From Lachnospiraceae bacterium (GTDB lineage: Bacteria; Bacillota; Clostridia; Lachnospirales; Lachnospiraceae): a DNA stretch of 33,323 nucleotides. The notes below the pieces were generated by a model that saw only the letters and a program-made list of their open reading frames with translations, was not told the DNA's origin and did no database searches. Below are positions 7,880 to 29,880 of this stretch, in pieces. The stretch lies in assembly GCA_024691125.1 (NCBI GenBank), contig JAILNV010000025.1, forward strand, positions 1-33,323. Reading direction: 5' to 3'. Position numbers and translations under genes: made by a program. Every line of letters starts with the position of its first letter. The stretch's first letter is position 1.

Positions 7880-7983
7880 CCCCTTATGATATATTGTAAG
7901 AAGTACTCCGTACTTCTTTTGAATACGCTCGCCGCTAAGGCATCATAAGGAATCCACCGCTACGTGATCCCCCTTATGATATA
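7880..7983. repeat. Short repeats and perfect hairpin between pfkA and the ACP gene
   Basis: CCCCTTATGATATA occurs at 7880-7893 and again at 7970-7983, where it encodes the end of the acyl carrier protein. An inverted 9-base copy (ATCATAAGG) lies at 7942-7950. Between them is a perfect 9-bp hairpin, AAGAAGTAC TCC GTACTTCTT (7898-7918). The hairpin could end the FkbH-ACP transcript, although in that direction it is followed only by ACAATAT. The duplicated gene end suggests a local duplication. Confidence 0.5.
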
Positions 7984-8202
7984 GTCAACCATTTCGCCTA
8001 CATTTTTCATTTTTACAACGGTCTTCATATCAAACCTTATATCGAATTCCTCCTCGACAGCATCCATAAGGGTAATATGTATAAGGCTATCCCATCCCTC
8101 TACATCAGCTGCCGTAGTTTCATCACTTACCGTAATGTCGTCCCTGTCAAACACATCACGGAAGACCTCATTTAATCTGGTATAAATCTCTTCTCTGCTC
8201 AT
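7960..8202 (-). CDS. Acyl carrier protein
   Basis: This 80-residue acidic four-helix carrier protein has the phosphopantetheine site GWDSLIHI, with Ser39 as the modified residue. The overall pattern (VFDRDDITVSDETTAADVEGWDSL) is that of stand-alone carriers used in specialised pathways rather than of the fatty-acid synthesis AcpP. The start ATG 8202 has GAAAGGGG upstream. It lies 36 bases after the FkbH-like gene and is almost certainly co-transcribed with it, so it is the likely acceptor of the group that enzyme loads. No ketosynthase, ligase or thioesterase is present nearby. Confidence 0.93.
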   Translation of the reverse strand: MSREEIYTRLNEVFRDVFDRDDITVSDETTAADVEGWDSLIHITLMDAVEEEFDIRFDMKTVVKMKNVGEMVDYIIRGIT

Positions 8203-8238
8203 TTATTCCCCTTTCAGTCGGTCTGCCCTGTCACTTTT

Positions 8239-10023
8239 CTATTGATCGGAATTTACCGATATATACTGATTCTTATCCTTATAATCGTCTTTAATCCTGA
8301 ATTCCCACGTCCGGTTGCCTTCACTGTCCTCATTTATCAGCTCGAATCCCATAAGTCCGTAGAAATCCTTAACCATCTTGTTCTTTGCCGTCGGATAGTA
8401 ATATCCGTGAATGATCTTGATCCCTGCTTCCTTTGCTCTGTGTACCAGTTCATCCATCATGGCGAACTCCATGTCTCTCTTAAGCACACGACAACTCATG
8501 ATCCACAGATCCATATCAAGAACATCACCGTTCTTATGGCCTATAACAACCGAAACCACACCGTTATCACCGAACTTATCCTGAAGCTTTCCGTAAATAT
8601 CTATATATTCATCCGAATCTGCCGTTTCTTCGATCTCAGCCCTTGTATACCGTTTTGTCGTCAGATTAAACTGGTTGCTCTTATTCGAAAGCTGGGCAAT
8701 TCTTTCCATATATATAGGTTCAAATGGTTTAATCGTTCCCTTCATCTCAAGAGATGTCAGATAATCCCCATAATTGTCAAAGCTTGCTTCAAGCTTTGCC
8801 CTCCTGGCATTTTCTTTGTACATCTCATTTCGCTTGGCATCATCCGATGAAAGATTGGTAACCTCAAAAAATCCCGAATGATCAAGAATCCTTATATAAT
8901 CCTCGACACTTCCTATTTCCGGAGATACAACATTAAGCTGTGCTCTTACTATCTCACGCTCTGCCGGATTATCATCAACAAAAACAAATGACTCCGGCAG
9001 CAGATTAAGCTCTCCTGCCATATCGGCAAGATTCTTACTCTTCGGATCCCAGTTGGCCTTGATCTCTATAAAATCATCCGGCTTAAGTACTCCATCCGGG
9101 TGATTAAGCCCCGCGATCGCATTCTCTTCTTCATTCTTGGAACAGACGTTCAGAATGACACCTATATCCTTCAGCATCTTAAGATACTCCTGGAATTCGG
9201 AATATACCTGTCCCATAGATGTCTCAGGCCCTATCTCAATACCCTCTACTCCGTCATCACCGACTATTCCGCCCCAGAGTGTGTTGTCAAGATCCAGAGC
9301 CAGGGCTTTCTTATTTTTTCCGTAAATGGATTTGATTATGTTGCTTACACTATATGCAAGTGTCGGAATAGCTTCCATTGACAGCGCGTATTTATACATA
9401 TGCCAATACAACGGATCGGACCATTTATCCAAGCCATAGCAGGCTGAAAGATAATTAATATCCTGAATGAAGAAATCCTTATGCTCTCCTGCATATGCCG
9501 CAAATCTTTCATTTAACCTGTTAATATAATTCACCCTGCCGTGTATATCGGTTGCATCCGCATTACCCAACAACCTGTAAAACGGATACTCGAAATTATT
9601 CTGTATAACCGGGCAATTATATGTGTTTTCTATCTTACCCCACAGTTTTTGAAAGTGAACATAATCTGCTTCCAGAAGCGCATCCACCTCATCAGCACTC
9701 ATAGAGATTTCCGGATACTGCCTTATATTCCTGTTACCGGTATGTATATAGATGATATCCGGATGGAATTCCACAAGCTCCGGATTATCAAACATAACAT
9801 CTTCCCAATACTGGGCATATTCACTCTCGTAAAACTGAGGACGTATCCCCTGATCCAGGAGAAACAGCTCAAGTATCATAATTATATCATGAGTAGTAGA
9901 GCCGCCCAGAACAGCGATCTTCTTATCGATAAATCCGTTTCCCTGTTCAAGAAGCTGTCTTTTAATGGATTTTTTTTTCTTTATTATGTATCTGCTGTCA
10001 AAGGGGTATTGCAATTCCTGCAT
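8239..10023 (-). CDS. FkbH-like HAD-IIIC enzyme (probable glyceryl-ACP synthase)
   Basis: This 594-residue protein has three parts. The N-terminal part resembles an SGNH-type fold (IAVLGGSTTHD, about 36-46). The central HAD phosphatase domain has the nucleophile motif ALDLDNTLWGG (D244, D246), later CSKNEE and FVFVDDNPAERE. The C-terminal part, from about 430, is GNAT-like (QFNLTTKRYTR .. FYGLMGFELINED). Characterised FkbH proteins take the glyceryl unit from 1,3-bisphosphoglycerate, remove its phosphate and load it on a carrier protein. The adjacent ACP fits this. ATG 10023 has AAGGAAGG about 11 bases upstream; a TTG start at 10050 is less likely. The end product is unknown. Confidence 0.9.
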   Translation of the reverse strand: MQELQYPFDSRYIIKKKKSIKRQLLEQGNGFIDKKIAVLGGSTTHDIIMILELFLLDQGIRPQFYESEYAQYWEDVMFDNPELVEFHPDIIYIHTGNRNIRQYPEISMSADEVDALLEADYVHFQKLWGKIENTYNCPVIQNNFEYPFYRLLGNADATDIHGRVNYINRLNERFAAYAGEHKDFFIQDINYLSACYGLDKWSDPLYWHMYKYALSMEAIPTLAYSVSNIIKSIYGKNKKALALDLDNTLWGGIVGDDGVEGIEIGPETSMGQVYSEFQEYLKMLKDIGVILNVCSKNEEENAIAGLNHPDGVLKPDDFIEIKANWDPKSKNLADMAGELNLLPESFVFVDDNPAEREIVRAQLNVVSPEIGSVEDYIRILDHSGFFEVTNLSSDDAKRNEMYKENARRAKLEASFDNYGDYLTSLEMKGTIKPFEPIYMERIAQLSNKSNQFNLTTKRYTRAEIEETADSDEYIDIYGKLQDKFGDNGVVSVVIGHKNGDVLDMDLWIMSCRVLKRDMEFAMMDELVHRAKEAGIKIIHGYYYPTAKNKMVKDFYGLMGFELINEDSEGNRTWEFRIKDDYKDKNQYISVNSDQ

Positions 10024-10063
10024 TGAATGATATGCCTTCCTTGTTATCAAAAGTTATACATTA

Positions 10064-10117: not shown

Positions 10118-10882
10118 TTATCTCAGCTTATCATGCAGAAGATTTAACAAATTCACTCTCGACGTGGATTTGAGAATGTATCCGTCAGGTTTTAATGACA
10201 TAACACGCTCAACCGCCTCCTTGTTTCCTATACCTGTAAGAAAGATAACCGGGATATCCTTTGTATCCGGTTCCTGTTTTAGCATCTGAAACACCTGCGG
10301 ACCGTCAATTACAGGCATTTCATAATCAAGCAGTATAAGATCCACTCTGTTCTTTAGCAGGAACTTGATAGCCTGCATCCCTGCTGTAACTATATCGGTC
10401 TGATATTCTTTTCCTATCCATTCCCTTATCATCTTGGCATATGAAGAATCGTCATCTACGATAAGTATCCTTTTTAAAGATCCTGACGAACCCGGCAGAC
10501 CGACAGCATTCTCTATTGCAGGCACCAGAATATCCATTTCTATAGGTCTGTCAACCCATGTGTAATCACCGATCACGGGCACTTTATCAAACAGATCGGA
10601 ACGGTCTTTTTCCTCCCCTATAATGATCATGCTTCTGCCGCTTCTGTTTACATTATCACAGATATATGTCAGTTCTTCCAGCTTATCTTTCATTTCCGTA
10701 ATATTTCCCGGAAGATAAAGAAGAAACAGATCTGTACTGCATGACATATCCTTTACTTTCTCATAGCCTTCCGAAAGAATAGAGGCTTTATATCCTGCGT
10801 CCTTCAGTTTTCTCTCAATGCCTTTTACAACAACACTGTACTGTAATACGATCAGTACAAAACTTTTCTGTCCTTCGCTCAT
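10118..10882 (-). CDS. Response regulator with a degenerate and an intact receiver domain
   Basis: This 254-residue protein has no DNA-binding or enzymatic output domain. Residues about 5-125 look like a receiver fold that has lost its acceptor Asp (FVLIVLQYSVVVKGIERKL .. DLFLLYLPGN). Residues 137-254 are an intact receiver: acidic pocket IVDDDSS, acceptor D186 in LILLDYEMPVIDG, and Thr in FLTGIG. The conserved Lys is present (K238), but the usual KP is replaced by LKST. Such output-less proteins act by protein contact in a phosphorelay. ATG 10882 has GGGAGG upstream; a TTG 12 bases earlier is rejected. It is the last gene of the signalling operon, 74 bases after the preceding gene. Confidence 0.88.
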   Translation of the reverse strand: MSEGQKSFVLIVLQYSVVVKGIERKLKDAGYKASILSEGYEKVKDMSCSTDLFLLYLPGNITEMKDKLEELTYICDNVNRSGRSMIIIGEEKDRSDLFDKVPVIGDYTWVDRPIEMDILVPAIENAVGLPGSSGSLKRILIVDDDSSYAKMIREWIGKEYQTDIVTAGMQAIKFLLKNRVDLILLDYEMPVIDGPQVFQMLKQEPDTKDIPVIFLTGIGNKEAVERVMSLKPDGYILKSTSRVNLLNLLHDKLR

Positions 10883-10956
10883 TTTTCCTCCCAACGCGTA
10901 TTTCGAGCCTTATCCCCATTCAGACATTTAATGGCGGTGTGTCTGCACCCATGGTT

Positions 10957-11922
10957 TTATCCCAGTATCTCACAATATACAAGCGTCTGGTTAAGGAGCT
11001 GATATGCCACTTCACCGAAGGTAACAGGTCCTGTATACGGAGGTATCTTCTGCCCTTTTAAGTTTCCAAACTGATAATTCAGTATACAATTACAGGATAA
11101 AGCAGGCCTGTGGGCTCCCGCTTCATTAATCCTCTCCCTGAACTTTGCGGCATAGTCCTTCACATCAACCGCAAAACGGTATTCAATATTCCGAAAGACC
11201 GGAGCATAGAAACTTACCGTGCTGTCTGTCACTTCCTTGATTGAAGTATTTATATACGAACCATTATAATCCGCAACCAGCGGCATCTTAATGTCTATAC
11301 CCTTCTTCCTTATATACTCCGAAAGATTCACATCCTGCCCGTTAACTATGCAGTTTGTAACGCTCAGATCATTATCATTAAACTGAATGATCGGATCGGT
11401 CTTATCATCCGAGAAAATATTTATCATATTTATCATGGCGCTCTTCCCTTCCGGAAGCTTTATATACATTGCCACTGCCTTATCTGTATATGATTCTCCC
11501 CTTGTACCGTCATAGACCTTTGCGGTTCCTCCTGTTTCAAGATCGAAACCGGATATCCAGCCTATAGTCGGATGCATAAGCAGTTCTTCCACCTCGGGAG
11601 CTTCCTTGGCATACTTTGTGGCTACCTGCGATCCGTAGGGAATGATAAGTATGGTAAGACCGTTATCATAGCATTCTTCAACAATCTGAAATATATTATA
11701 CTTCCCATAAGCTTCTACCCTTATTTCCTCGGCATAATCTATCTCATCAACAAAAAGCCTCTCTTTTGTAAGCAGCCCGCCCTCTTCACTGATGAAATAC
11801 GGAGTTGTTCCTCCTATCCAATTGCCCTTGGGAAGCTGTTTTAACAGTGAATCATCCGCTGCTATATGTAGTTTTTTTCCTTCATTTATTAAATTTATGG
11901 TCTCTTCCAAATTTATAAGCAT
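10957..11922 (-). CDS. Conserved protein of unknown function with possible FIST_C-like end
   Basis: This 321-residue soluble protein is not firmly recognised. No signal peptide or transmembrane helix is visible. The N-terminal half (MLINLEETINLINEGKKLHIAADD .. LPKGNWIGGTTPYFI) has alternating strands and helices and Gly-rich turns. The C-terminal part, with ALSCNCILNYQFGNLK and later GPVTFGEVAYQLLNQTLVY, recalls the FIST_C sensory domain, where a Cys-containing strand is followed by a GE motif. That similarity is by eye only. The start ATG 11922 has a perfect AGGAGG. It sits between a 72-residue protein and a double-receiver regulator in the signalling operon, so a ligand-sensing role is plausible. 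Confidence 0.75.
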   Translation of the reverse strand: MLINLEETINLINEGKKLHIAADDSLLKQLPKGNWIGGTTPYFISEEGGLLTKERLFVDEIDYAEEIRVEAYGKYNIFQIVEECYDNGLTILIIPYGSQVATKYAKEAPEVEELLMHPTIGWISGFDLETGGTAKVYDGTRGESYTDKAVAMYIKLPEGKSAMINMINIFSDDKTDPIIQFNDNDLSVTNCIVNGQDVNLSEYIRKKGIDIKMPLVADYNGSYINTSIKEVTDSTVSFYAPVFRNIEYRFAVDVKDYAAKFRERINEAGAHRPALSCNCILNYQFGNLKGQKIPPYTGPVTFGEVAYQLLNQTLVYCEILG

Positions 11923-12178: not shown

Positions 12179-15100
12179 TTAACTTAATGCCTCTATTATC
12201 CCGTCATAATCAAATCTGTCTGCTTTTTCACAGATCAGATCAAACTTTTCTTTTTCTGAGGCAGGAATGGCATATTCTTCTATTTCCTTCATGATATCAT
12301 CTATCATGTCACTGTTCATATCTTCCGCCGCTTTACGGAGTTCTTCATAAATACTCTCCATAAGAAACTCATCCGCCAAAGGTTTATCAGAATCATCAGA
12401 GCTTCCTGACTCAAACAAAGGAGCCAGTATTTCCAAATAACTTAGATACTCATCCATGACGAAATCATGATTTTCTTTTATATATTGAATATTATCTCCC
12501 TTCCCCGCCATTTCAAGCTTCTCTGCACAGTCTCCAAGTTCAACGGCTCCCACAAGTCTTGCAGAACTCTTAAGCGCATGTATTTTTATTGTATAATTCT
12601 CCCAGTTCGAAGATGTAAAAGAGTTTTCAAGTTCCTCATACTTATCCTTTATAGAATCATAGAATATCTTAAGCACCGTCCTAAAGGCTGCTTCGGATCC
12701 TGAATTCTTTATTGCAATCTCTGTGTCGATTCCTTTGATATCTTCTATCGACAGTTCTTCATCCGATACATCCAAATCATTTGATTCCTCATATGATTCC
12801 GCATCTGAGACAGCTTCAGAATACTCTTCCATAAACTCTTCTTCAATTGCGGTCTCATCATTTTCATCCCCTTCAATATCCTCGTGCAGAGATTCTTCCA
12901 TATTCATATCATCAATAAAAGAGGCTATGTTATATGATTTATTTGATTTAAGGAAATAAAATATTCCGAATGAGCCAGGTCCGCAATTTGAAGATATAGC
13001 AGCCGACGCCTGCTGAAAAACAACATGCTCAAAATATGCTATCTTCTGGATTTCCTCTTCGATCCATTTAAGTACATCCGTCAGCACATCTGCATAAGTA
13101 ATAAATAAAATGTCCGAATCAGGTACTGTATCCTTTGGAAGAGCATATTTTATATATTTCCGATATGCTCTTCTTGTCCTGCCCAACCATATTCCGCCTA
13201 CATCTGTCCTGTCGTTCCTTATCTTTAATGCCGGATGTATATTTAACGCATCTGCAATCCTATTAAGTCTGGAACTCACAAGCCCTTTCTTAGCCATATA
13301 TTCTGTGGTATTGATAATAAAGCTGCATTTGAGACGCTTCTTTACCGTTTCAAGCTCGGATAGAATATCTTCAACCTGCTTTCCCTGCTGCATAAGCTTG
13401 TATGCGATCAAAACCAATATTCCCATAGAACTTGAGATACTCTCCGAATTGATAACCGTAACATTATCAAATGCTTTGGCCGCCTCGGAGGCTGTTTTAA
13501 AATCATCACTCATGCTTGTTGTGATCGCTATATGGATAAGATGATGCGCCTTCTTTAAATTTTCCGCAAAGAATTCCGTATAATCGGCTTCACACGGAGG
13601 TGCCGAAACGGCTTCCTTTCCGGATCCGATATGCTTAATAAGTTCATATGCATCCATATGAAACCCATCTTTAAATATTCCTTCTTCAGTCTTAATTACA
13701 AACGGAATAATGGGTATATGCAGCTTTCTTATCACGGAATCCGGAAGATCGCACATACTCGAAGATGTAATTATAACCGGAAGCTTCTGAGAATACTTAT
13801 CGGCTGTATGTATCTCCTCACCATCTCCCGTCAAAACAGATCTTAATATGATCTTTTCACCGGAGATATGCCGTATAAGCATTTCTTCCATAGCTTCTCC
13901 GGAAACAGGCTTAACAAGATATCCGTCAAATCCTGCCTGATTATACAGCTCTCTGTTTTCGCTTCCCGCATTGGCTGTCAGCACAATAACCGGTGTGTTT
14001 CTGTTAAGCCCACCGGTCTGGTTTCTTAATGCTTCCAGACACTCTATTCCATCAATGCCCGGCATCAGATGATCCATAAATATCGCATCATAATGGATCC
14101 CTAAGCACATCTCCAGAGCTTCCTTTCCGCTCCTTGCCACATCGATACCCATGTCTGTATCCTCAAGCAGTCTGCGCTCAACCTCTAAGTTCATTTCATT
14201 ATCATCTACTATAAGTATCCTGACTTCAGGCGCTAAGAAGCTGCTCTCGTATATATTTCTTTTAACTATCTGCTGGTTATGGATATTCAGTTCTCCAATC
14301 CTGTTATGATCCGATACCTTCTGCTTTACCATAACAGTAAAGGTAGAACCCTCACCATAAACACTGTTAACGGTGATCGTTCCATCCATCAGTTCAGTAA
14401 GCTGTTTTACAATGCTCAGTCCCAGTCCCGTTCCTTCAATATGGCGGTTTTTCCCTTCATCCACACGTTTGAAAGCGTCAAACAGATATGGCAGGTCTTC
14501 CTTTTTTATTCCCATTCCCGTATCTGAAACGGATATCATCAGTTCTACCTTATCCGTCTCTGCCTCTCTGCTCTCTACACGAAGTCCGACATGACCTTTT
14601 GCCGTATATTTTACTGCATTGTTTAACAGGTTTATTATGATCTGCTTAATACGGACCTCATCTCCGTAAAGAACCGTGGGCACCTCCGGATCCACGCTCA
14701 CTTCAAATCCCAGTCCCTTATCATGGGTCCGAAGCCACATCATATTAACGATCTCCGAGAGCATATCTCCTATATGGTAGTCAACGGGAACTATGTCCAT
14801 GCTCCCTGCTTCAATCTTGGAAAAATCAAGTATATCATTTATAAGTGCAAGGAGCATCTTGCCGGAACCCTGTATACCCGAAGCATCCTTTATTATATCA
14901 TCCGACGCATCCTGATCTCTCAGAATAAGTTCGTTAAGACCCAATATTGAGTTGATCGGAGTCCTTATTTCATGACTCATACTCGAGAAAAAGCGGTTTT
15001 GTGACCGGTTTAATTCTTCTACCCTTTCGGCTTCTGCATGAGCTCTCTTACTCTCTTCCGTAAAGATCGTCTTTTGATACATCAGCATAAAATACATGCA

Positions 15101-15613
15101 TATACCAACCAGTATAACCGACACAAGCGGATCAAGAAAACTCATCATCATGGAATGCGGATATATCCATTCCAAATGCCTGTATGCCGACCAGAATTCA
15201 AAAATACCGATGAATGTAAGTATGCCCATCATCGTAACCCTTAAGCGGCCCGTAAGAGACATTCCGATGAACATATATGCAAATATGATCCAGTATATTC
15301 CTCCTCCCCTTGTTCCTCCTCCGTAATAGAAGGTTATCGGTAATATTATAAAGATCAGTGCGCACACAGATATGAACGACCCTATTGGGATTTTTTCAAA
15401 GCGTATACTTAATGAAACCAATACCGGAATAGCTATTATGGATGCGGAAATGGTAACTATCTCCTGCATGCTTTCACCACCGATTATATCAAATATCAGG
15501 GCTATCACCATTGCGGAGACTCCTATTATTGACAGCATGATAAACGTTCGTTCTTCATAACTGCGTGTGAAGTCTGTAAGTCTTGCAAACAGCTTTTTTA
15601 TCAGCTTCATCAT
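12179..15613 (-). CDS. Hybrid histidine kinase with internal DegV-like domain and C-terminal Hpt
   Basis: This is a 1144-residue membrane protein. Residues about 22-180 contain several transmembrane helices. HisKA has SSMSHEIRTPINSIL (H214), and the ATPase domain has NLLNNAVKYT, DTGMGI and GTGLGLS (about 310-432). The receiver (464-585) has IVDDNEMN, D514 in IFMDHLMPGIDG, and LVKP. Residues about 611-890 match the DegV fatty-acid-binding fold: IITSSSMCDLPDSV, FKDG, ITTSMSDDFKTASEAA, NTTEYMAKKGLVSSRL and NCGPGSFGIFYF. An acidic linker (900-950) leads to Hpt with H1012 (IHALKSSARLVGA). A tail of about 60 residues is shared with the first kinase-like protein of the operon. It overlaps the previous gene by ATGA and has GGGAGGGG upstream. 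A DegV domain within a phosphorelay protein is not an arrangement I know as characterised. Confidence 0.93.
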   Translation of the reverse strand: MMKLIKKLFARLTDFTRSYEERTFIMLSIIGVSAMVIALIFDIIGGESMQEIVTISASIIAIPVLVSLSIRFEKIPIGSFISVCALIFIILPITFYYGGGTRGGGIYWIIFAYMFIGMSLTGRLRVTMMGILTFIGIFEFWSAYRHLEWIYPHSMMMSFLDPLVSVILVGICMYFMLMYQKTIFTEESKRAHAEAERVEELNRSQNRFFSSMSHEIRTPINSILGLNELILRDQDASDDIIKDASGIQGSGKMLLALINDILDFSKIEAGSMDIVPVDYHIGDMLSEIVNMMWLRTHDKGLGFEVSVDPEVPTVLYGDEVRIKQIIINLLNNAVKYTAKGHVGLRVESREAETDKVELMISVSDTGMGIKKEDLPYLFDAFKRVDEGKNRHIEGTGLGLSIVKQLTELMDGTITVNSVYGEGSTFTVMVKQKVSDHNRIGELNIHNQQIVKRNIYESSFLAPEVRILIVDDNEMNLEVERRLLEDTDMGIDVARSGKEALEMCLGIHYDAIFMDHLMPGIDGIECLEALRNQTGGLNRNTPVIVLTANAGSENRELYNQAGFDGYLVKPVSGEAMEEMLIRHISGEKIILRSVLTGDGEEIHTADKYSQKLPVIITSSSMCDLPDSVIRKLHIPIIPFVIKTEEGIFKDGFHMDAYELIKHIGSGKEAVSAPPCEADYTEFFAENLKKAHHLIHIAITTSMSDDFKTASEAAKAFDNVTVINSESISSSMGILVLIAYKLMQQGKQVEDILSELETVKKRLKCSFIINTTEYMAKKGLVSSRLNRIADALNIHPALKIRNDRTDVGGIWLGRTRRAYRKYIKYALPKDTVPDSDILFITYADVLTDVLKWIEEEIQKIAYFEHVVFQQASAAISSNCGPGSFGIFYFLKSNKSYNIASFIDDMNMEESLHEDIEGDENDETAIEEEFMEEYSEAVSDAESYEESNDLDVSDEELSIEDIKGIDTEIAIKNSGSEAAFRTVLKIFYDSIKDKYEELENSFTSSNWENYTIKIHALKSSARLVGAVELGDCAEKLEMAGKGDNIQYIKENHDFVMDEYLSYLEILAPLFESGSSDDSDKPLADEFLMESIYEELRKAAEDMNSDMIDDIMKEIEEYAIPASEKEKFDLICEKADRFDYDGIIEALS

Positions 15614-17661
15614 ACACCCCTCCCGTCATAGCTTATTTTCTTTGCCGGAAGTACCCTAAGCATAACTCTTTCAAAATCAGATGTATCGATTGGCTTGGCT
15701 ATAAAGCCGTCGAAGCCTTCTTTCATAAACATTTCTCTTGCACCTGATACTGCATTTGCGGTGAGTGCAACGATCACGGCTTCCCTGTCCATATCTTTTG
15801 CCAAGGCTTTTATCTGCTTCATGGCTTCCACTCCGTCCATTTCCGGCATCATATGATCCATAAATATAAGATCATAATCATTCTCCCTGAATTTACGGAT
15901 AGACTCCATACCGCTTGCTGCAGTATCGATAACCATCATATAATCCCTGAACAGAGAAGTGGCGACAACAAGATTCATTGGTTCATCATCAACTACCAGA
16001 GCCCTGACACCTTTAAAAACAGGCTTCCCCCGGCTCTCATTATCTTCTGATTCCCCGCCATCATGTCCATCATTCAGTATCTTCATTATCGGATAAGCAT
16101 ATAAAGGTTTGGGCATAAGTATTACCCGGCTGTTTTCAGGAAGTTTAAAATCCGGCTCCGCCGTTACCACGATTGTTATTTCTTCCTTCGCAAGCAATTC
16201 GAAATAGCCTCTGTTCTCTTCATACTCTTCCTGTCCCATGAATACATGAGTCGCATTCAGCTTCTCCTTGAGACGTTCCACTTCATAGACCGTTTCTGCC
16301 GGATACAGGGGAACATTCATAGCCGATGCAAGGTTTGCAGCCATACTCCGGTAAAAATCACGAAGTCTCGGAACCTTATACTTATCAGGTCTTACATGGA
16401 AAAGAACTGCACCGTCAAATGACTCCCCCAGTTTAAGGCAGGGTTTATCATCAACTACTTTCTGAGGAATAGTAACTCTTATTGTTGTTCCGTTTCTCCT
16501 GTCGCTTTCAATCTTGACAAAGCCACCCATCCTGTGTGCAAAACCGTATACTATGAAAAGTCCCAGGCCTATACCGCCTGAACTGCGGTTTCTCTTCTTG
16601 TTAGCCTGGTACATTCCCTCGGTAACCGACCTTATATCATCACCATTCATACCTATTCCCGTATCGGTCATCTCTATAGTAAGGTTCACGCCGTAATCCA
16701 TATTCTCGGTATACATTTTCACATATATACCGCCTTTTTTCGTGAACTTTATCGCATTCTCCAAAAGATGCCGGAATATCTTATGAAGCTTTTTTATATC
16801 CCCGGTCATCATCGCAGGTGTCATAGGACTTAAATCAACAACAAGTTCCAGGTCTTTAACACTGTCATTCATACGAAAACTTGTAACCACATCATTTATA
16901 AGGGATGTGCTCATGTAATTATCTTCTTCAAGAAATATCTTGTTTCTTTTGCATTCTGTATAATCCTGGATATCCTCAATCTGGTATGAGAGCCTTACTC
17001 CGGCAGTTTTAATGGAATCCGCTTCATAGCCGATCCCTCTTTTGATCAGAAGGTCTGACATACCGTTAACCACATTTACCGGTGTCCTTAGCTCATGTGA
17101 TATATTTGACAGAAAATCCTCCATGCTGTCATCATTTGCTTTAATACGTTCCTCTTTTATCCTGTTCTCTTCTTCATCATAGAGCCTGTCATTTATACCC
17201 CTCACGCTGATATAATATATAAAAAGCACTATTAATATATGAAGCAGAAGCCTTGATATAGCAAGCTTATCAAATACTAACGGGTCACCCCCGGGAAAAT
17301 TAAAAATGTGAATAAACAGCAGGGCAAAGTACTCAAAAAGAAAAAAATATATCATGTAGGTACTGTTAAGCATGGAATATGCTGCCATTGCCAAAACCGC
17401 TACCAATGCCGTATCAAATAATGAGCTCTTATGTACCCCATGATAAAAGACCAAAAGAACGGCATATACAAAATAAAACAGTTTCCGTATATCATATTCT
17501 ACCCGGCCGGAAAGATTAACTGCCCAAAGAGACATAAGTCCGACAACAATAACCGGTGGGACCCAGAATTCCCATCCCATCAGCTTTATCTCGGCGATCA
17601 AACCCAAAGACAACAGAGTTGCCAAAAAGGCTATAAATTTCTCGTTATTTTTCTGGCTCAT
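15610..17661 (-). CDS. Hybrid histidine kinase with pseudo-receiver and receiver
   Basis: This 683-residue protein starts with about six transmembrane helices (residues 10-155). HisKA has SNISHELRTPVNVVNG (H189). The ATPase domain has HLLENAIKFT, DTGIGM and GGIGLGLFIVYG (about 295-400). Residues 415-530 have receiver-like spacing (AVLFHVRPDKYKVPRL .. ATHVFMGQEEYE .. ITIVVTAEPD .. RVILMPKPL), but the DD pair and acceptor Asp are absent. The last domain is an intact receiver with VVDDEPMN, D602 in LIFMDHMMPEMDG, ALTANAVSG and IAKP. It lacks an Hpt, so its phosphate may pass to the Hpt proteins of the operon. The ATG 17661 lies inside the end of the cyclase gene (17-base overlap), with GAGGAAGG upstream. 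Confidence 0.93.
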   Translation of the reverse strand: MSQKNNEKFIAFLATLLSLGLIAEIKLMGWEFWVPPVIVVGLMSLWAVNLSGRVEYDIRKLFYFVYAVLLVFYHGVHKSSLFDTALVAVLAMAAYSMLNSTYMIYFFLFEYFALLFIHIFNFPGGDPLVFDKLAISRLLLHILIVLFIYYISVRGINDRLYDEEENRIKEERIKANDDSMEDFLSNISHELRTPVNVVNGMSDLLIKRGIGYEADSIKTAGVRLSYQIEDIQDYTECKRNKIFLEEDNYMSTSLINDVVTSFRMNDSVKDLELVVDLSPMTPAMMTGDIKKLHKIFRHLLENAIKFTKKGGIYVKMYTENMDYGVNLTIEMTDTGIGMNGDDIRSVTEGMYQANKKRNRSSGGIGLGLFIVYGFAHRMGGFVKIESDRRNGTTIRVTIPQKVVDDKPCLKLGESFDGAVLFHVRPDKYKVPRLRDFYRSMAANLASAMNVPLYPAETVYEVERLKEKLNATHVFMGQEEYEENRGYFELLAKEEITIVVTAEPDFKLPENSRVILMPKPLYAYPIMKILNDGHDGGESEDNESRGKPVFKGVRALVVDDEPMNLVVATSLFRDYMMVIDTAASGMESIRKFRENDYDLIFMDHMMPEMDGVEAMKQIKALAKDMDREAVIVALTANAVSGAREMFMKEGFDGFIAKPIDTSDFERVMLRVLPAKKISYDGRGV

Positions 17662-18994
17662 AACGTTCCTTCCTCAGTACTGACATTGCATACTCTATTT
17701 TGATCCTGTCATGATATCCCGCAAGCGATAATTCCTTCATTATGCGATCGATCAGTATGCTAATATTATCCTGTTTACACATGGGTAAAACCACAAAATA
17801 CATATTATGCTGCCACCTGATCATAATATCGGATTTTCTGAGTGTATTTTTAAGGATATTACCGAATTCGGATACCATCTCCGAGAATAATACCCCCTTC
17901 TCCCCGGACGATAAGGAAAACAATATCCTTACAGCAGTTCCTCCGTAACGCACTAAAAAACGTTCAATAAAACGATAATTGCTTAAAAACGCTTCCTGCC
18001 CCAAAAGTAATGCCCCCTTACCCTCAGTACGTTCAGCCATGATCTTGATTATCCTGATAAGTTCCCCGTCTATATCCTCCTTAGGATTCTCTGCCGTCGT
18101 ATCGGGATCATATATACGATAGCCATGCTTGCCTTCCCGTTTAGCTTCATAAAGCGCATTATCCGCATACTGAAACAGTATCTGATAATCCTTCCGGTTA
18201 TCATTGGTGAAAGCAGCTCCTATCGATATTCCCAAAGGAATTCCATGATCTTCTCCCATCAGGGATATAGCTTCCTCTGTCAGCTGTTCATTAAGCCTCT
18301 GGGTTATGGATGCTACCGAATCCTCATTATTCATATCTGTGAAGAATCCCATAAACTCATCGCCGCCTATCCTGCATACCATATCATCGTTTCTTACATT
18401 GAGCCTGACTATTCCGGAAAACGCAACAAGGACACGGTCACCCATATCGTGACCATAGAGATCGTTTACAAGCTTGAAATTATCAAGGTCCATTACCATT
18501 AAAGCTCCTTTTTCTGTCTTGCAAAGCTCTGATACTTTTTCCGTACCGCTGGCCTTGTTCAAAAAGCCTGTCAGCTTGTCAAGTGTAGCTTCCTCGGTAA
18601 GACTTTCTATCGTTTTATTGTTATCTATTGTGTTTTTTATACGTTTGATAAGGATGTCCTTGTCAAAAGGTTTACGTATGAAATCAGAAGCTCCTGCCTT
18701 AAGTCCCCTGCGCTCTGTTTCACTGTTATTCTCACCAGTCAAAAAGATCACCGGAGTCAGGTTTCTTTCATGGTCTTCTTCATATTGACGCAGTGCGCGG
18801 TATGTCTCAAAACCATCCATATCGGGCATCAATATATCAAGCAGTATAAGATCAGGTGTATGATCCATAATAAATTCCAGCAGATCCGCACCCGAACGCA
18901 GACAGCTCACACGCATATTCTCTTCACGCAACATATTTTTTGCATTTGTGAGACTGAAAGGTTCGTCATCTACAACTGTTATCCAGTAACCCAT
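17645..18994 (-). CDS. Response regulator diguanylate cyclase (REC-GGDEF plus degenerate GGDEF)
   Basis: This 449-residue protein makes cyclic di-GMP when phosphorylated, judging from its family. The receiver (1-120) has VVDDEP, acceptor D53 in LILLDILMPDMDG, FLTG and IRKP. The GGDEF domain (about 135-295) has MDLDNFKLVNDLYGHDMGD and an intact RIGGDEF (209-214). An inhibitory I-site RNDD (R201-D204) lies exactly five residues before GGDEF, so product inhibition is expected. Residues about 320-440 look like a second GGDEF fold in which the signature is replaced by LRKSDIMIRWQHNMYFVVLP, so it should be inactive. ATG 18994 has GGGAGAGAG upstream. It lies 21 bases after the first kinase-like gene and overlaps the next. 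Confidence 0.94.
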   Translation of the reverse strand: MGYWITVVDDEPFSLTNAKNMLREENMRVSCLRSGADLLEFIMDHTPDLILLDILMPDMDGFETYRALRQYEEDHERNLTPVIFLTGENNSETERRGLKAGASDFIRKPFDKDILIKRIKNTIDNNKTIESLTEEATLDKLTGFLNKASGTEKVSELCKTEKGALMVMDLDNFKLVNDLYGHDMGDRVLVAFSGIVRLNVRNDDMVCRIGGDEFMGFFTDMNNEDSVASITQRLNEQLTEEAISLMGEDHGIPLGISIGAAFTNDNRKDYQILFQYADNALYEAKREGKHGYRIYDPDTTAENPKEDIDGELIRIIKIMAERTEGKGALLLGQEAFLSNYRFIERFLVRYGGTAVRILFSLSSGEKGVLFSEMVSEFGNILKNTLRKSDIMIRWQHNMYFVVLPMCKQDNISILIDRIMKELSLAGYHDRIKIEYAMSVLRKERYEPEK

Positions 18995-19015: not shown

Positions 19016-21304
19016 TCAACCGTTCATTAGTTTAATTATGGTTTTATACTCATATTTATCCGATGCATCTTTGAGTTTATCATATAATTCCTTACTTTCT
19101 GCCGGAATGCGGTAATCACCCATTTCAGCAAAGATGCTGTCAAGCATTTCGCAATCCATATCTTCCGCGGCTGCTCTTATCCCTTCAAATACACTCTCCA
19201 TAAGGTCTGTATCGGCTTCCGGTTTATCATAGTCGGAATCAAATCCCGAAAATACCTCTTCCAGAATCTTTTTAAAGCTATCATATCTGTTTATAAATAC
19301 ATCATGGTGGCTCTTTATATAGACAATATTTCCTTCTTTACCTGCATCCTCAAGTCTCTGCGCCTCCTCACCGAAGACGTCCGCTCCTATGATCCTTGCC
19401 GAGCTTTTCAGGGCATGAACCTTTATCGTATAATTCTTATAATCTTTATTCTCATAGAAACGGCTAAGCTCCAAGGATTTTTCATCTATTGATTCATAGA
19501 ATACCTTTAAAAGAGCCAGGTATGACTCAGCACTTCCACTGTTCTTAAGTCCTTTCTTTGTATCAATAATATCTGAATTTATCATAGCTATGGCTTCCGG
19601 GAGGTTTATGTGATCTTCCGGGTTATCATCCCCGGTGCTGCATATCGTTACTTTATCCTCTGAAATATATTTAAGCATTATTTCTTCAAGCATTATCGGG
19701 TCAACCGGTTTTGCAAGGTAATCGCTAAAGCCCTCCGAAATATATTTTTCTCTAACTCCCGATATTGCATTTGCCGTTAGACACACAACAGGGGTTGAGA
19801 CATTTTTATTTGATGGACTCTCTTTTATTCCATGAAGCGTTTCTATTCCATCTTTTTCCGGCATCATATGATCAAGAAAGATCATATCATACCTGTTCTT
19901 TTCAGTCAGCTTAACACACTCATCACCACTGTGCGCAGTATCAAGCATCACACCCGTCTGCTTTATAAGGCTCTTGAATACCATAATATTCATAGGATTG
20001 TCATCCACTACAAGCACACGCGCATCGGGAGCCGTAAATCTTTCATGATATTTGTAATCTGCTGTAATCCGCTTTCTTAAATAAAGGCTGTTGTCCTCAT
20101 CTGCATCTTCTGTTTCAGCTAAGTCATACTTCTCTGCATCTGCCTCCGAATAATCAAGCATTTCATCAACCAGACCCAGCAGATGCCTGCCTGCTGTCTT
20201 AACATTCTCAGAATATTCACGGATTGCCGTTTCACCGCTTTCCCTTAAGATCATTTCGTTCATGCCAAGAATCGCGTTGATTGGCGTCCTTATCTCATGG
20301 GACATTTTGGACAGAAATTCCGATTTGGCATCACTCGCAGCGATTGCCTTCATCGACATATGCAGATATCTGTTGGAGCGTGTCATAATAATACTTATTA
20401 TCAGCACAATGGCTATGACTACAGTAATGGTTACAAACATAATGGAATTAAGTGAACCAAATACGGATGTAGCATCTTTAACTGATATACAGAACCATTC
20501 ATTCTGTATATCCGCAACATATACTATATAGTTCGCCCCATTAAATATGAACTCAAAATAGTCGTTCTCTTTATTGAGCCTGCTTAATATCTCAGATCCC
20601 AGCGTGCCCTTTTCATCATGATAATTCTTGAAAACCTCGCCAATATCCGAATGAGCCACTACCATTCCATCATCATTGAGGATCATTTCAATATCGGAGT
20701 TCCCGTTTTTTACAGCCTGCTCCGTCAGGTTCTGTATCCGGTCAAGAGATACATCAACCGATATTACGCTGACACCGTCACACAACGTCTTACCGAGAGC
20801 AAGCATCATATTTCCTGACTGAACATCAATGTAAGGATCCAGGATCGTAATTTCACCCGGATTCTCCATCGGTCTTTTATACCAGGGCCGCTCCGTTGCG
20901 TCATAATCCTTGGGCGGCTCCCAGTTGGTACCGCTGAAGAATCTTCCGTTTATGTATCCGTACAGGCCCGTCGAATTCTCTATAACGGCATTTCTCACCG
21001 CTGTTGATTCACCTACAAGATAGTCCTGTATTTCTTCATCCGTCCTCTCTTCATTTATCATTTCATCCAATGTATAGGCGGCAAGTTTGACGGAATCGAT
21101 ATTTGTAGTCAGATACCGCTCTATCTGATCTGCGGATTCTTTAGCTGTTATCTCACCGGTTTTTACTATATTATTCCGTTTCTCGTTATAGAGCATACGG
21201 TAATACACTATGATTATTCCGGTAAAAAACAATATAACAAGAACGGCTATCACTATATTTCTTTTTATAAGCTTTCTTTTATCCCTGTCTGTATCTGTAC
21301 TCAT
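19016..21304 (-). CDS. dCache sensor HisKA-REC-Hpt protein lacking the kinase ATPase domain
   Basis: This is a 762-residue membrane protein. A first transmembrane helix (about 17-36), an extracytoplasmic dCache-like sensor (about 40-285, with the WYK motif in ATERPWYKRP) and a second helix (286-308) come first. HisKA follows with LSKMSHEIRTPINAILGMNE (H336). Only about 40 residues separate HisKA from the receiver, so the N, G1 and G2 boxes of the ATPase domain are missing. The receiver has VVDDNPMN, D478 in IFLDHMMPEKDG and LAKP. The Hpt has IKVHALKSSARIIGA (H630). The C-terminal tail is shared with the DegV kinase. The protein cannot autophosphorylate by the usual route. The start is uncertain: ATG 21304 (GGTGA upstream), ATG 21322 or TTG 21337. 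Confidence 0.92.
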   Translation of the reverse strand: MSTDTDRDKRKLIKRNIVIAVLVILFFTGIIIVYYRMLYNEKRNNIVKTGEITAKESADQIERYLTTNIDSVKLAAYTLDEMINEERTDEEIQDYLVGESTAVRNAVIENSTGLYGYINGRFFSGTNWEPPKDYDATERPWYKRPMENPGEITILDPYIDVQSGNMMLALGKTLCDGVSVISVDVSLDRIQNLTEQAVKNGNSDIEMILNDDGMVVAHSDIGEVFKNYHDEKGTLGSEILSRLNKENDYFEFIFNGANYIVYVADIQNEWFCISVKDATSVFGSLNSIMFVTITVVIAIVLIISIIMTRSNRYLHMSMKAIAASDAKSEFLSKMSHEIRTPINAILGMNEMILRESGETAIREYSENVKTAGRHLLGLVDEMLDYSEADAEKYDLAETEDADEDNSLYLRKRITADYKYHERFTAPDARVLVVDDNPMNIMVFKSLIKQTGVMLDTAHSGDECVKLTEKNRYDMIFLDHMMPEKDGIETLHGIKESPSNKNVSTPVVCLTANAISGVREKYISEGFSDYLAKPVDPIMLEEIMLKYISEDKVTICSTGDDNPEDHINLPEAIAMINSDIIDTKKGLKNSGSAESYLALLKVFYESIDEKSLELSRFYENKDYKNYTIKVHALKSSARIIGADVFGEEAQRLEDAGKEGNIVYIKSHHDVFINRYDSFKKILEEVFSGFDSDYDKPEADTDLMESVFEGIRAAAEDMDCEMLDSIFAEMGDYRIPAESKELYDKLKDASDKYEYKTIIKLMNG

Positions 21305-21409
21305 ATCCTTCGTCTTCACCATATCAAATAAATTCAATTATCATGCAATATCTTTCCTGCCTCATACAATATGTAATGCTGCCCTGTGGATATAGTGACT
21401 CATGGTTTA

Positions 21410-26827: not shown

Positions 26828-27571
26828 TTATATTTCCTTCAGAATACTAAATTGTTTGTCCGAAGCATCAAACTCTGCCCAATTTGCCTGACTAAGCAAT
26901 TCATCCATGATCCTAAAAATCCGTTCAGGATTAAAAATCGAAAGTGAAACACCTAACTCAGCTTTTACTTTATTGCGCCTGGATTTTAAGTAAACCTCTG
27001 ACTCAAAATCTTTTATAAATCGCTTCACCTGATCGATCACCTCTTTCTGTTCAGGATTATTCTCAGATAAAGCATTTAACATAAATGTTTCCAATGCCCC
27101 CACTTCCTGCATTGGGACAAGCAAATAGCACATCCTGGCTTTATTTTCATCAAATGAACTCTGGTATGATACTTCTGTCCAAATGTTCAGATTAGCACTT
27201 ATTCTGTCAATACTTCCCTTGGTTTCCGGAAAACAATCAACAAATCCTTTAAAAGTTGCCGTTACACGTTCATTTTCTGCCTTTTCATCATCATGATCCG
27301 TTACCACAACCAGGCTATCTAAACCTGCATCATACTTCTCTCTTTCGGAAATTTTCGCCATTACGCGGCTGAAATCATTGCCCTCCACTCTCCATATACC
27401 AAGCACACTTTGATTTTTTCCGCTGTACCATACTATCTCATTTTCTGTATACAGTGGCTTATCCGTCTTTTTATATTTCCAATCACCTAACGCTTCTAAA
27501 TAAAGACCGATCAGGACCTGATCCGTTTCCCCCTCACATAATATAAGACTATAGCGTTTTGTATTCATCAT
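26828..27571 (-). CDS. TOPRIM-domain protein paired with an AAA ATPase (DUF3226/OLD-like nuclease)
   Basis: This 247-residue protein begins with a TOPRIM fold: the metal-binding Glu motif LILCEGETDQVL (E13) and, about 75 residues later, the acidic pair VVVTDHDD (D92, D94). Middle residues YLLVPMQEVGALETFML resemble DUF3226 and DUF4435-type TOPRIM proteins. The start ATG overlaps the stop of the ATPase gene (ATGA), so both are translated in a fixed ratio. In OLD, Gabija and PARIS systems an ABC-type ATPase works with a TOPRIM nuclease against phages. Here the two activities are on separate chains, as in PARIS (AriA-AriB). The frame continues after the TAA with 23 open codons. Confidence 0.8.
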   Translation of the reverse strand: MMNTKRYSLILCEGETDQVLIGLYLEALGDWKYKKTDKPLYTENEIVWYSGKNQSVLGIWRVEGNDFSRVMAKISEREKYDAGLDSLVVVTDHDDEKAENERVTATFKGFVDCFPETKGSIDRISANLNIWTEVSYQSSFDENKARMCYLLVPMQEVGALETFMLNALSENNPEQKEVIDQVKRFIKDFESEVYLKSRRNKVKAELGVSLSIFNPERIFRIMDELLSQANWAEFDASDKQFSILKEI

Positions 27572-28698
27572 CTCACTTCCAGATTGTATTCTTTACGTAA
27601 TGTATGTGCCTCCGAAGCATCCAAAGTTCTTACTTGCAACGCCTCGCCATTATCTCTCATCGTTATAACCCGGATATCATCGCCGTTGAGCTTATCACTA
27701 TCTAATACCGCCAGAAAATGATCGAGGAATTCAATATTATGTGTAGTTATAAAAAGCTGCACATTATTTCTTTTTGCATATTTTATTAAATTGGAACAAA
27801 AAACCTCCTGTGCTTCCGGATGAATACCAACATCTATCTCATCTATGCATATAATAGAATTTTTATATAACTCTATTGCTCCAAGTATATAAAACCAACG
27901 CTGTACACCGTCACCATATGCATAAATAGGCAGAGCTGTTCCATCCGGCTTTTTAATACTGATGGGTGCCTGAGACCCGTCCGGATACGGTATCATATCA
28001 ATGCCAGATATTTCCGGAAATATAGACTGCATATTGCTTACAACTTCCTCTAATATCCCCTCTCGTTTTAAGGACCCATATATCTGAATATTTTCCGTAA
28101 TAGCTGTATGCGCCAAAACATCAACATACTTCGCTATTACATACGGTCTTACATTAGATGCCGCCCCAAAAGGAGATGTAACATCATATTCCTGAGCACT
28201 ATTTGTGTCGGCTATCTTCCATTTTGCCAACAAAACAGGCTGTTGAATCTGCATTCCAGATAAAAGGAGTTGTAACCCGTTATTTACAGGTGGCGCCTCA
28301 TTTGTACTGGGCACTATCTGTTCATTCATCTTTTTATAAGATGAATCATAGCTAGTCAACAAGTCGGAAGGATATACTGTATGCTCAAATTTTACAGTTT
28401 CACCATTCCAAACCCCTTCAAAACTCATTTCAAATGGAAGTTTACTCTTGTCATTAAAAACAGAAAGTATTTCCTCCATGATCCAATATGGAGTTTGTAT
28501 TCTTGAATATCTGCCTCTGCTTACAGGAACATTCATAAAGGGTATTATATTCTGACCACATGCCCATGAATAAACCGACTCCAGGATAGAAGTTTTACCT
28601 ACATTATTCGATCCCATTATAAAATTTATATGCCCCAGATTATCAAGCATCTGTTCTTTATATTTCCTAAAGCCTTTAATTGTAATCTTCTCAAGCAT
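27568..28698 (-). CDS. AAA-family (OLD/AriA-like) ATPase
   Basis: This 376-residue ABC-type ATPase is soluble. Walker A is GSNNVGKTS (29-37), in the typical context ITIKGFRKYKEQMLDNLGHINFI. The signature-like region is YAYGDGVQRWFYIL, Walker B is IICIDEIDVGIHP (282-294) and the switch His is in FITTHN (H320). The arrangement is that of AAA_15/AAA_21 ATPases of OLD-type systems. There is no nuclease domain in this chain; the TOPRIM domain is in the next gene, coupled by ATGA overlap. I chose ATG 28698 because GGAGGG lies just upstream; the earlier ATG at 28713 overlaps that site. It is probably the sensor component of a two-gene defence system. Confidence 0.87.
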   Translation of the reverse strand: MLEKITIKGFRKYKEQMLDNLGHINFIMGSNNVGKTSILESVYSWACGQNIIPFMNVPVSRGRYSRIQTPYWIMEEILSVFNDKSKLPFEMSFEGVWNGETVKFEHTVYPSDLLTSYDSSYKKMNEQIVPSTNEAPPVNNGLQLLLSGMQIQQPVLLAKWKIADTNSAQEYDVTSPFGAASNVRPYVIAKYVDVLAHTAITENIQIYGSLKREGILEEVVSNMQSIFPEISGIDMIPYPDGSQAPISIKKPDGTALPIYAYGDGVQRWFYILGAIELYKNSIICIDEIDVGIHPEAQEVFCSNLIKYAKRNNVQLFITTHNIEFLDHFLAVLDSDKLNGDDIRVITMRDNGEALQVRTLDASEAHTLRKEYNLEVR

Positions 28699-28728
28699 TT
28701 GGTTTCCCTCCATACATTGGTGTCTGTC

Positions 28729-29473: not shown

Positions 29474-29880
29474 ATGAACACAAACCAAACACTCGTCAGG
29501 CCACTCTGGCCAAATGGTCTACCATCTTCCAGGAGCAACAATCCAGCGGACTTACCATCAAAGAATGGTGCTCCCAAAAGGATATTTCCATCCACAGTTT
29601 TTACTATTGGAAGCGCATCGCCAAGGAAGAGTATCTCAAATCTGTTATGCCGGAGATCGTTCCGATCTCCATCCCTTCCGATCCTCTTCCCGCTCCGGGA
29701 TCAACTGCTCCTGCAAAGGAACTCGAGTTGTACAACTTTAACAACTCGTGCAACTCAAGTAATACCGTTCCAGATCCGGTTCCTATTTCCATCTCGACGG
29801 GTGATATCCGAATCGAGATCGGTGCATCTGCGCCGGATGCATTGATCACTAAGATCATAGGAGCGCTGCGCAATGCTTAG
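29474..29880 (+). pseudogene. IS66 accessory protein TnpA, frameshifted near its start
   Basis: AAGGAGG lies 6 bases before ATG 29474, which reads only MNTNQT before leaving the family frame. From about 29491 the frame shifted by two bases reads TRQATLAKWSTIFQEQQSSG, LTIKEWCSQKDISIHSFYYW, KRIAKEEYL, and runs to TAG 29880 (...IIGALRNA). This is the helix-turn-helix N-terminus typical of IS66 TnpA. Removing two bases from the ACAC run at 29489-29492 would restore one reading frame, so a dinucleotide insertion is the probable cause. The stop overlaps the start of the next gene (ATGCTTAG), as is normal in IS66. Confidence 0.8.

Follow-up and report, generated by a model that had tools for sequence, protein, structure and literature searches.

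A DegV domain of predicted FakB-type fold in paired hybrid histidine kinases of Lachnospiraceae: a possible cytosolic receptor for acyl ligands

What does a domain related to fatty-acid-binding proteins do inside a histidine kinase? The question is raised by a 33,323-nucleotide stretch of DNA from a Lachnospiraceae bacterium (contig JAILNV010000025.1 of assembly GCA_024691125.1, positions 1 to 33,323; hereafter the window, meaning this whole stretch), in which one gene encodes a hybrid histidine kinase with a DegV domain lodged between its receiver (REC) and its histidine phosphotransfer (Hpt) domain. An earlier note on this DNA had proposed that such a protein might form a phosphorelay gated by a bound fatty acid, or might couple phosphate transfer to lipid supply. 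The reading that we favor, tentatively and at somewhat less than even chances, is that the DegV part descends from FakB and serves in the cytosol as a receptor, probably of an acyl ligand, through which a phosphorelay shared by two neighboring kinases is tuned. A kinase with a FakB-derived domain would be a direct candidate for lipid input into a phosphorelay; fatty acids are toxic to many rumen bacteria, and to our knowledge, fatty-acid sensing by fermenting anaerobes is a largely open question.

The DegV landmarks that had been described near residues 611-890 are present in the translation at about those places, and the DegV profile covers residues 615-887. The Pfam family PF02645 matches the protein with an E-value of 3.4e-36 and 125.5 bits (cut-off 27), and the NCBIfam model TIGR00762 with 139.6 bits against a cut-off of 99.7; in a phmmer search of PDB sequences, the top match is 2dt8 (9.3e-24), and FakB chains rank lower. 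An AlphaFold2 model of residues 596-900, built from 35 sequences, has a mean predicted local distance difference test score (pLDDT) of 90.0 and a predicted template modeling score (pTM) of 0.87. Searched against the PDB with Foldseek, it retrieves exclusively DegV/FakB structures at ranks 1-45, with template modeling (TM) scores of 0.70-0.90 (best 1pzx, E-value 9e-26; 5uto, FakB1 with palmitate, E-value 2e-21), and folds of the DhaQ/DhaK type come next. The DegV part is thereby predicted to take the two-domain fold of the DegV/FakB fatty-acid-binding proteins, as the earlier note had expected. A longer model spanning REC, DegV and Hpt (pLDDT 81.1, pTM 0.49) contains three folded parts and a disordered linker ahead of the Hpt domain, with an unreliable relative placement of the three parts.

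Pfam also confirms the order HisKA-HATPase-REC-DegV-Hpt that had been read from the letters, and the protein carries the residues expected of a hybrid kinase with an Hpt domain: the HisKA histidine, N and G boxes, the receiver aspartate, and the Hpt histidine. The receiver aspartate was missed by a strict receiver pattern; it stands in an invariant column of alignment A3 (residue 60 of its first row). Taken together, these motifs support a domain setting fit for a phosphorelay. Pfam gave no match in the membrane part of the DegV kinase, which holds no recognized extracellular sensor domain, and because neither kinase of the window pair described below has a recognized extracellular domain, DegV is the only recognized ligand-binding domain of that pair.

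We considered whether the DegV part might be a sequencing or frame artefact; this is ruled out by the recurrence of the same open frame and domain order in many other genomes. When the whole protein was used as a query on 200 genomes sampled from the same taxonomic family, the window's own among them, at least 34 gave a match running through DegV, and in at least 6 of these the match extended through Hpt, both counts being lower bounds with three candidates scored per genome; the architecture thus occurs in other Lachnospiraceae, where the earlier note had suggested looking for it. Within the window's genus, 15 of 19 genomes (counting the window's own) have a Pfam DegV match in an open frame of at least 750 amino acids (aa), compared with 0/12 genomes that belong to other families in the order. 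Such places number 31 in the genus outside the window's own genome, and all 21 that we fetched proved to be kinases. Across 245 genomes of the class, DegV open frames of at least 700 aa were found in at least 6 genomes, of which four belong to the window's family and two to a single other one. Finally, a scan of named genomes yielded 519 related stretches, of which 80 were kept (L036-L115, the scan set): 72 labeled Lachnospiraceae, Butyrivibrio or Lachnospira, 3 Eubacterium, 4 Oscillospiraceae or Ruminococcaceae, and 1 without such a label. Rumen samples are named in many titles of this set, which also includes five Butyrivibrio isolates. Judged by sequence, the DegV hybrid kinases are a conserved family present across many genomes of rumen and gut bacteria.

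The comparisons that follow depend on how sequences were obtained. By unbiased loci, we mean those found without a DegV motif, namely 20 hand-picked from the 45 whole-protein places outside the window's own genome, plus 20 regions holding the 21 fetched genus places; three loci reached by this route were identical to scan loci and were counted in the scan set. The scan set itself was selected by a single pattern, the segment around position 270 (FakB1 numbering), and residue counts therefore use 40 fused domains found otherwise: those of 38 unbiased loci, of the window kinase, and of L004, a second DegV kinase in the window's genome (an 893-aa open frame, read in part, in which Hpt is absent). 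These were compared with 37 standalone DegV proteins; a 99-sequence set was kept out of the residue counts. In a tree of the 40 fused domains and 38 others (the 37 standalone proteins and FakB1), the fused domains occupy one side of a single branch, with a support of 100 in the Shimodaira–Hasegawa-like approximate likelihood ratio test (SH-aLRT), and a second tree of 43 fused and 53 other domains likewise places the fused domains on one side of a branch with that support. By these alignments, the fused DegV domains are one clade; several independent fusions were considered and set aside, as the trees need only one.

Excerpts from two FakB1 studies (PMC8892158, PMC9136124) describe a carboxylate network of Thr62, Ser95, Ser171 and His270, an Arg173 needed for the FakA reaction, and an Arg205 needed for FakA and membrane binding. 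Using this numbering, which we verified on the FakB1 sequence, we find that fused and standalone domains differ at most of these sites. Position 62 is Ser in 26 fused domains, Thr in 11 and another residue in 3, versus Thr in 35 and Ser in 2 of the standalone proteins; position 95 is Ser in 23 and another residue in 17, versus Ser in 36 and Thr in 1. Arg is found at position 173 in 14 of 40 fused domains versus 37/37 standalone, and Arg or Lys at position 205 in 0/40 versus 37/37 (35 Arg, 2 Lys). His270 is likewise present in all 37 standalone proteins and in none of the 40 fused domains, where Asn takes its place in 35 and other residues in 5. Position 171 is conserved in neither group. A second alignment setting reproduced the counts for positions 62, 173 and 270 in full; for 95 and 205, it reproduced the leading ones. 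In the window protein, the sites of Thr62, Ser95 and His270 hold Ser670, Ser702 and Asn876, in that order a conservative change, a retained residue and a replacement. The sites of Arg173 and Arg205 hold Leu778 and Leu810; the last assignment is somewhat alignment-dependent, with Arg812 two residues on and Gly placed there by another alignment, and gives no Arg either way. We took another 15 proteins, standalone or nearly so, from the class-wide list: 13 of 14 carry Ser/Thr62, Ser95, Arg173, Arg205 and His270 (the exception, L175, has Val at 205), and the fifteenth, L177, which groups with the standalone proteins, has Phe at 205 and Ser at 270. That protein (L177:2369-4174, reverse strand) is 601 aa long with DegV in its second half, and our scan detected no kinase domain in it. 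Because the hallmarks are lost in the fused domains and not in the standalone ones, the loss goes with fusion; at the same time, the prevalence of Asn at position 270 and of Ser or Thr at position 62 (37/40) marks the headgroup site as changed yet constrained.

These differences bear directly on whether the domain still hands over fatty acids. One might suppose that the fused DegV remains a FakA substrate and so couples fatty-acid phosphorylation to the relay; the same genome does encode a FakA-type protein (we take YloV to be FakA), and Arg173 survives in the minority of fused domains counted above. This we regard as highly improbable, given that the window protein lacks both arginines, that Arg205 is absent from all 40 fused domains, and that the genome, which has five DegV regions, two of them within kinases (the window kinase and L004), also encodes three standalone DegV proteins in which Thr62, Ser95, Arg173, Arg205 and His270 are all retained. 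As the fused domain lacks the FakB hallmarks His270 and Arg205, it appears no longer to serve FakA, and a role in lipid supply via FakA is unlikely; the coupling of phosphate transfer to lipid supply put forward in the earlier note is abandoned here. A separate possibility is that DegV is an output, the phosphorylated receiver controlling lipid binding or release. The domain does sit right behind the receiver, as effector domains of response regulators do, and 24 of the 38 unbiased members have no Hpt behind DegV. Residues used for docking to the membrane and contacting FakA are missing, however (Arg205 in 0/40), and where FakB1 has its membrane-entry residue Trp180, 27 of 40 fused domains have Asn, Lys, Arg, Ser or Thr (though this site varies in the standalone proteins too). 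A carrier function is unlikely on both counts, and we consider such an output role rather improbable. Instead, the fused copy looks like a carrier turned into a sensor, since most of the features for passing fatty acids on to metabolism are gone.

The DegV kinase does not stand alone. In 38/38 complete, distinct DegV kinases of the unbiased loci, a second hybrid kinase lies upstream; the L024 partner, 311 bases away from its DegV kinase, is truncated by the contig end, and that of L026 is broken into two frames, the adjoining piece being REC-Hpt alone. For the 65 complete DegV kinases of the scan set, the partner is whole in 59, cut by a contig end in 3 and not seen in 3, of which two begin near a contig end and one is a 460-aa fragment (14 further incomplete DegV kinases were excluded). 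Of 82 kinase pairs (loci L016-L115 without L050), 49 show a gene overlap of exactly 4 bases.

Within the pair, the Hpt domain is found in one kinase or the other. Exactly one Hpt is present in 35 of 37 whole unbiased pairs, in the DegV kinase in 14 and in the partner in 21; no pair has two, and two pairs (L029, L157) have none. In the whole pairs of the scan set, the DegV kinase carries it in 56, the partner in 0 and neither in 3 (L040, L091, L115), with a separate Hpt-bearing frame just downstream in L040 and L115. The window agrees with this pattern, no Hpt having been found in its partner kinase, as do three further loci (two from another taxonomic family), each with a partner and one Hpt per pair. 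Pfam applied to the partners of L022, L023, L025 and L031 returned HisKA, HATPase, REC and Hpt for each, the L031 Hpt falling under the Pfam cut-off, and the Hpt histidine is present in 93/93 Hpt domains of DegV kinases and 22/22 of partners (near-copies not removed). Only one change of Hpt state is needed on the DegV tree (support 62); the complementarity is accordingly a fixed trait that distinguishes two subfamilies and does not reflect many separate events.

The two kinases of a pair also look unequal. With an unanchored pattern and near-copies not removed, the N box reads N...N in 114 of 118 DegV kinase frames, versus H...N in 68, N...N in 2, another form in 17 and no match in 18 of 105 partners; the phospho-acceptor histidine is matched by pattern in 113/118 and 101/105, respectively. 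The partner may therefore be a weak kinase or mainly an acceptor. Since the DegV kinase gene sits behind its partner and one Hpt is present between them, the two kinases most likely act as one unit. A single Hpt carried by one or the other of two neighboring kinases is an unusual relay design; the neighboring kinase, the single Hpt per pair and the genes for cyclic di-GMP (c-di-GMP) described below were absent from the earlier note. The pairing lends some weight to a different account, in which DegV binds no ligand and acts as a docking module that recruits the partner kinase or the Hpt domain to the receiver: the neighboring kinase is constant, the first residue of the N box sets the two kinases apart, and the headgroup residues are weakly conserved. 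We nonetheless judge this quite unlikely, as the recurrent Asn at the His270 site and Ser or Thr at position 62 look like pocket constraint.

A candidate output of the relay is visible in the genes around the pair. With the range set to 4.3 kb upstream and 2.5 kb downstream on the same strand, a GGDEF and/or HD-GYP gene lies inside it in 17 of 38 unbiased loci (13/24 without Hpt in the DegV kinase and 4/14 of the Hpt type) and in 22 of 67 scan loci. Pfam identifies REC with HD_5, which we take to be of HD-GYP type, in L023, L025 and L033, and REC-GGDEF-REC in L031. Upstream of the pair, L148 and L152 encode proteins (789 and 816 aa) that combine receivers with GGDEF and HD-GYP-type domains in a single chain, as detected by our own profiles. 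The window has a run of four genes in the order dCache-HisKA-REC-Hpt protein, REC-GGDEF response regulator, partner kinase and DegV kinase (Table 1). In the first of these, Pfam found no HATPase domain, and a 927-aa relative (L017:2783-5566) has one, so the window copy may depend on another kinase.

Several observations weigh against an acyl receptor within a shared relay. Ser or Thr occupies both positions 62 and 95 in only 24 of 40 fused domains versus 37/37 standalone proteins, so the fused headgroup site may bind something else, or nothing. An excerpt from the FakB1 literature (PMC8892158) reports that A121I loosens selectivity while function is retained; this tunnel position is Leu, Ile or Val in 37/40 fused domains, yet also in 19/37 standalone proteins. 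In the alignment that adds three fused domains, L168 shows Arg at position 205, and neither L166 nor L167 shows Ser/Thr at 62 or Ser at 95; these cases either run contrary to the pattern or are alignment shifts. Judged on the tree, the 35/37 count of single-Hpt pairs is near to one event and not many. No c-di-GMP gene is in range in 21/38 unbiased and 45/67 scan loci, and domains that follow a receiver often serve as outputs. Lastly, in 44 of 65 Hpt-type loci the 2 kb downstream of the DegV kinase include a gene of the Na+:alanine symporter family, which is the immediate next gene in 25 (for example, L016:4406-5929 and L017:11047-12573), and in the same 65 loci a DUF6976 gene and a gene for a 256-aa receiver protein occur within that distance in 24 each; these counts cover loci with at least 2.2 kb of room, include close relatives and the scan set and so are not independent, and the symporter family was assigned from two representatives.

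Such a neighbor suggests that DegV could be a receptor for a non-lipid small molecule, for example an amino-acid-related one tied to the symporter, with the carboxylate site rebuilt for another headgroup; the replacement of His270 by Asn and the incomplete retention of Ser or Thr at both carboxylate sites fit such a change. We hold this to be unlikely, if less so than a docking or an output role. In the 26 Hpt-less loci with room, the same 2 kb contain no gene for the symporter, for DUF6976 or for the 256-aa receiver protein, and no symporter was found among the Pfam-scanned genes next to the DegV kinase in the window. The tunnel positions 162 and 191 are non-polar in 40/40 and 39/40 fused domains, and in the titles of the top 45 Foldseek structures, many of which mention a fatty acid, the ligands named are lipids or fatty acids. 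Gating by a bound fatty acid, the first proposal of the earlier note, is possible: the serines at the Thr62 and Ser95 sites speak for it, and Asn876 and the 24/40 count speak against it.

The favored reading of a FakB-derived acyl receptor draws on sequence for the architecture, the clade, the pairing, the one Hpt per pair and the loss of FakA residues, and on prediction for the fold; we infer from these the joint action of the two proteins, the acyl-like ligand, a sensing and not an acting role, the c-di-GMP output, and the direction of signaling. In this scheme, a FakB-type protein would have been captured by a membrane hybrid kinase, once according to the trees, and would have become its cytosolic ligand-binding domain. 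Phosphate would pass from the autophosphorylated HisKA domain to the receiver, on to the single Hpt domain, and from there to separate response regulators, some of which would make or break c-di-GMP. An acyl-type ligand on DegV would shift phosphotransfer or the balance of kinase and phosphatase activity, the DegV domain thereby setting the flow of phosphate between receiver and shared Hpt. More speculatively, at perhaps one chance in three or slightly better, these proteins could represent a new class of cytosolic lipid receptor, in which a FakB carrier detached from FakA reads a free fatty acid or acyl compound and sets a two-kinase, single-Hpt phosphorelay, which in some of the loci would steer c-di-GMP, in fermenting rumen bacteria.

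Table 1. Features of the DegV kinase and its neighbors in the window
Feature	Position	Strand	Description	Evidence
DegV hybrid histidine kinase	12179..15613	-	1144 aa, ATG start; membrane part-HisKA-HATPase-REC-DegV-Hpt	Open reading frame (ORF), Pfam
Membrane part	15071..15553	-	Hydrophobic stretches in residues 21-181	Kyte-Doolittle windows
HisKA	14804..15001	-	Residues 205-270; phospho-acceptor His214 in SHEIRTP (213-219)	Pfam 1.6e-16, pattern
HATPase_c	14321..14665	-	Residues 317-431; N box NLLNNAVKYT, G boxes DTGMGI and GTGLGL	Pfam 6.5e-28, pattern
Receiver (Response_reg)	13880..14218	-	Residues 466-578	Pfam 1.5e-23
DegV domain	12953..13771	-	Residues 615-887	Pfam, NCBIfam, phmmer, AlphaFold2, Foldseek
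Ser670	13604..13606	-	Position of FakB1 Thr62 (carboxylate network)	Alignment
Asn876	12986..12988	-	Position of FakB1 His270	Alignment
DegV-to-Hpt linker	12752..12886	-	Acidic, flexible; residues ~910-954	pLDDT <50
Hpt domain	12509..12676	-	Residues 980-1035; His1012 in HALKSSA	Pfam 6.7e-07, pattern
Partner hybrid kinase	15610..17661	-	683 aa, HisKA-HATPase-REC; 4-base overlap with DegV kinase	ORF, Pfam
REC-GGDEF response regulator	17645..18994	-	GGDEF motif present; candidate output	Pfam, pattern
dCache-HisKA-REC-Hpt protein	19016..21337	-	First gene of the run	Pfam
DUF6976 protein	10957..11922	-	Recurrent downstream neighbor in Hpt-type loci	Pfam
Receiver protein	10118..10894	-	Unassigned N-terminal part and REC; recurrent neighbor	Pfam

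Downstream of the Hpt-less loci, no family recurs among nine Pfam-scanned genes (L025, L027, L028, L032, L146, L147, L154, L156 and L166, the last without a match) out of 14 same-strand genes within 150 bases; of the rest, L149 clusters with L146, and L024, L031, L091 and L114 were left out of the Pfam scan. Elsewhere in the window, the region downstream of the kinase run (7960-10050, reverse strand) encodes an FkbH-type protein and, after it, an 80-aa phosphopantetheine-site (carrier) protein, an AAA_15 ATPase gene lies beside a DUF3226 gene (26828-28713, reverse strand; possibly an OLD-type pair), and a piece of an IS66-type transposase is present at 29873-30847 (forward strand).

How do these proteins compare with known systems? 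A fusion of DegV to a histidine kinase is not described in the titles and abstract openings of the open-license literature that we searched, which is weak evidence of absence; PMC12288450 presents a similarity network of DegV domains. The window domain resembles the FakB/DegV proteins (PF02645, TIGR00762) over the whole predicted two-domain fold and in its Ser at the Thr62 and Ser95 sites, and differs from them in lying within a kinase, in the replacement of His270, Arg173 and Arg205, and in belonging to a separate clade. Among hybrid kinases, the protein gives long matches to the TorS, BarA and ArcB families, all below their cut-offs. These families have the order HisKA-HATPase-REC-Hpt, as in the window kinase, which however has DegV between REC and Hpt and whose sister group carries Hpt in the partner. 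A more distant likeness in fold is to DhaK and DhaQ (Foldseek E-values 3e-07 to 2e-06), a dihydroxyacetone kinase subunit and an operon co-activator, respectively, which have other ligand chemistry and no kinase fusion; DhaQ is a precedent for a substrate-binding fold turned regulator.

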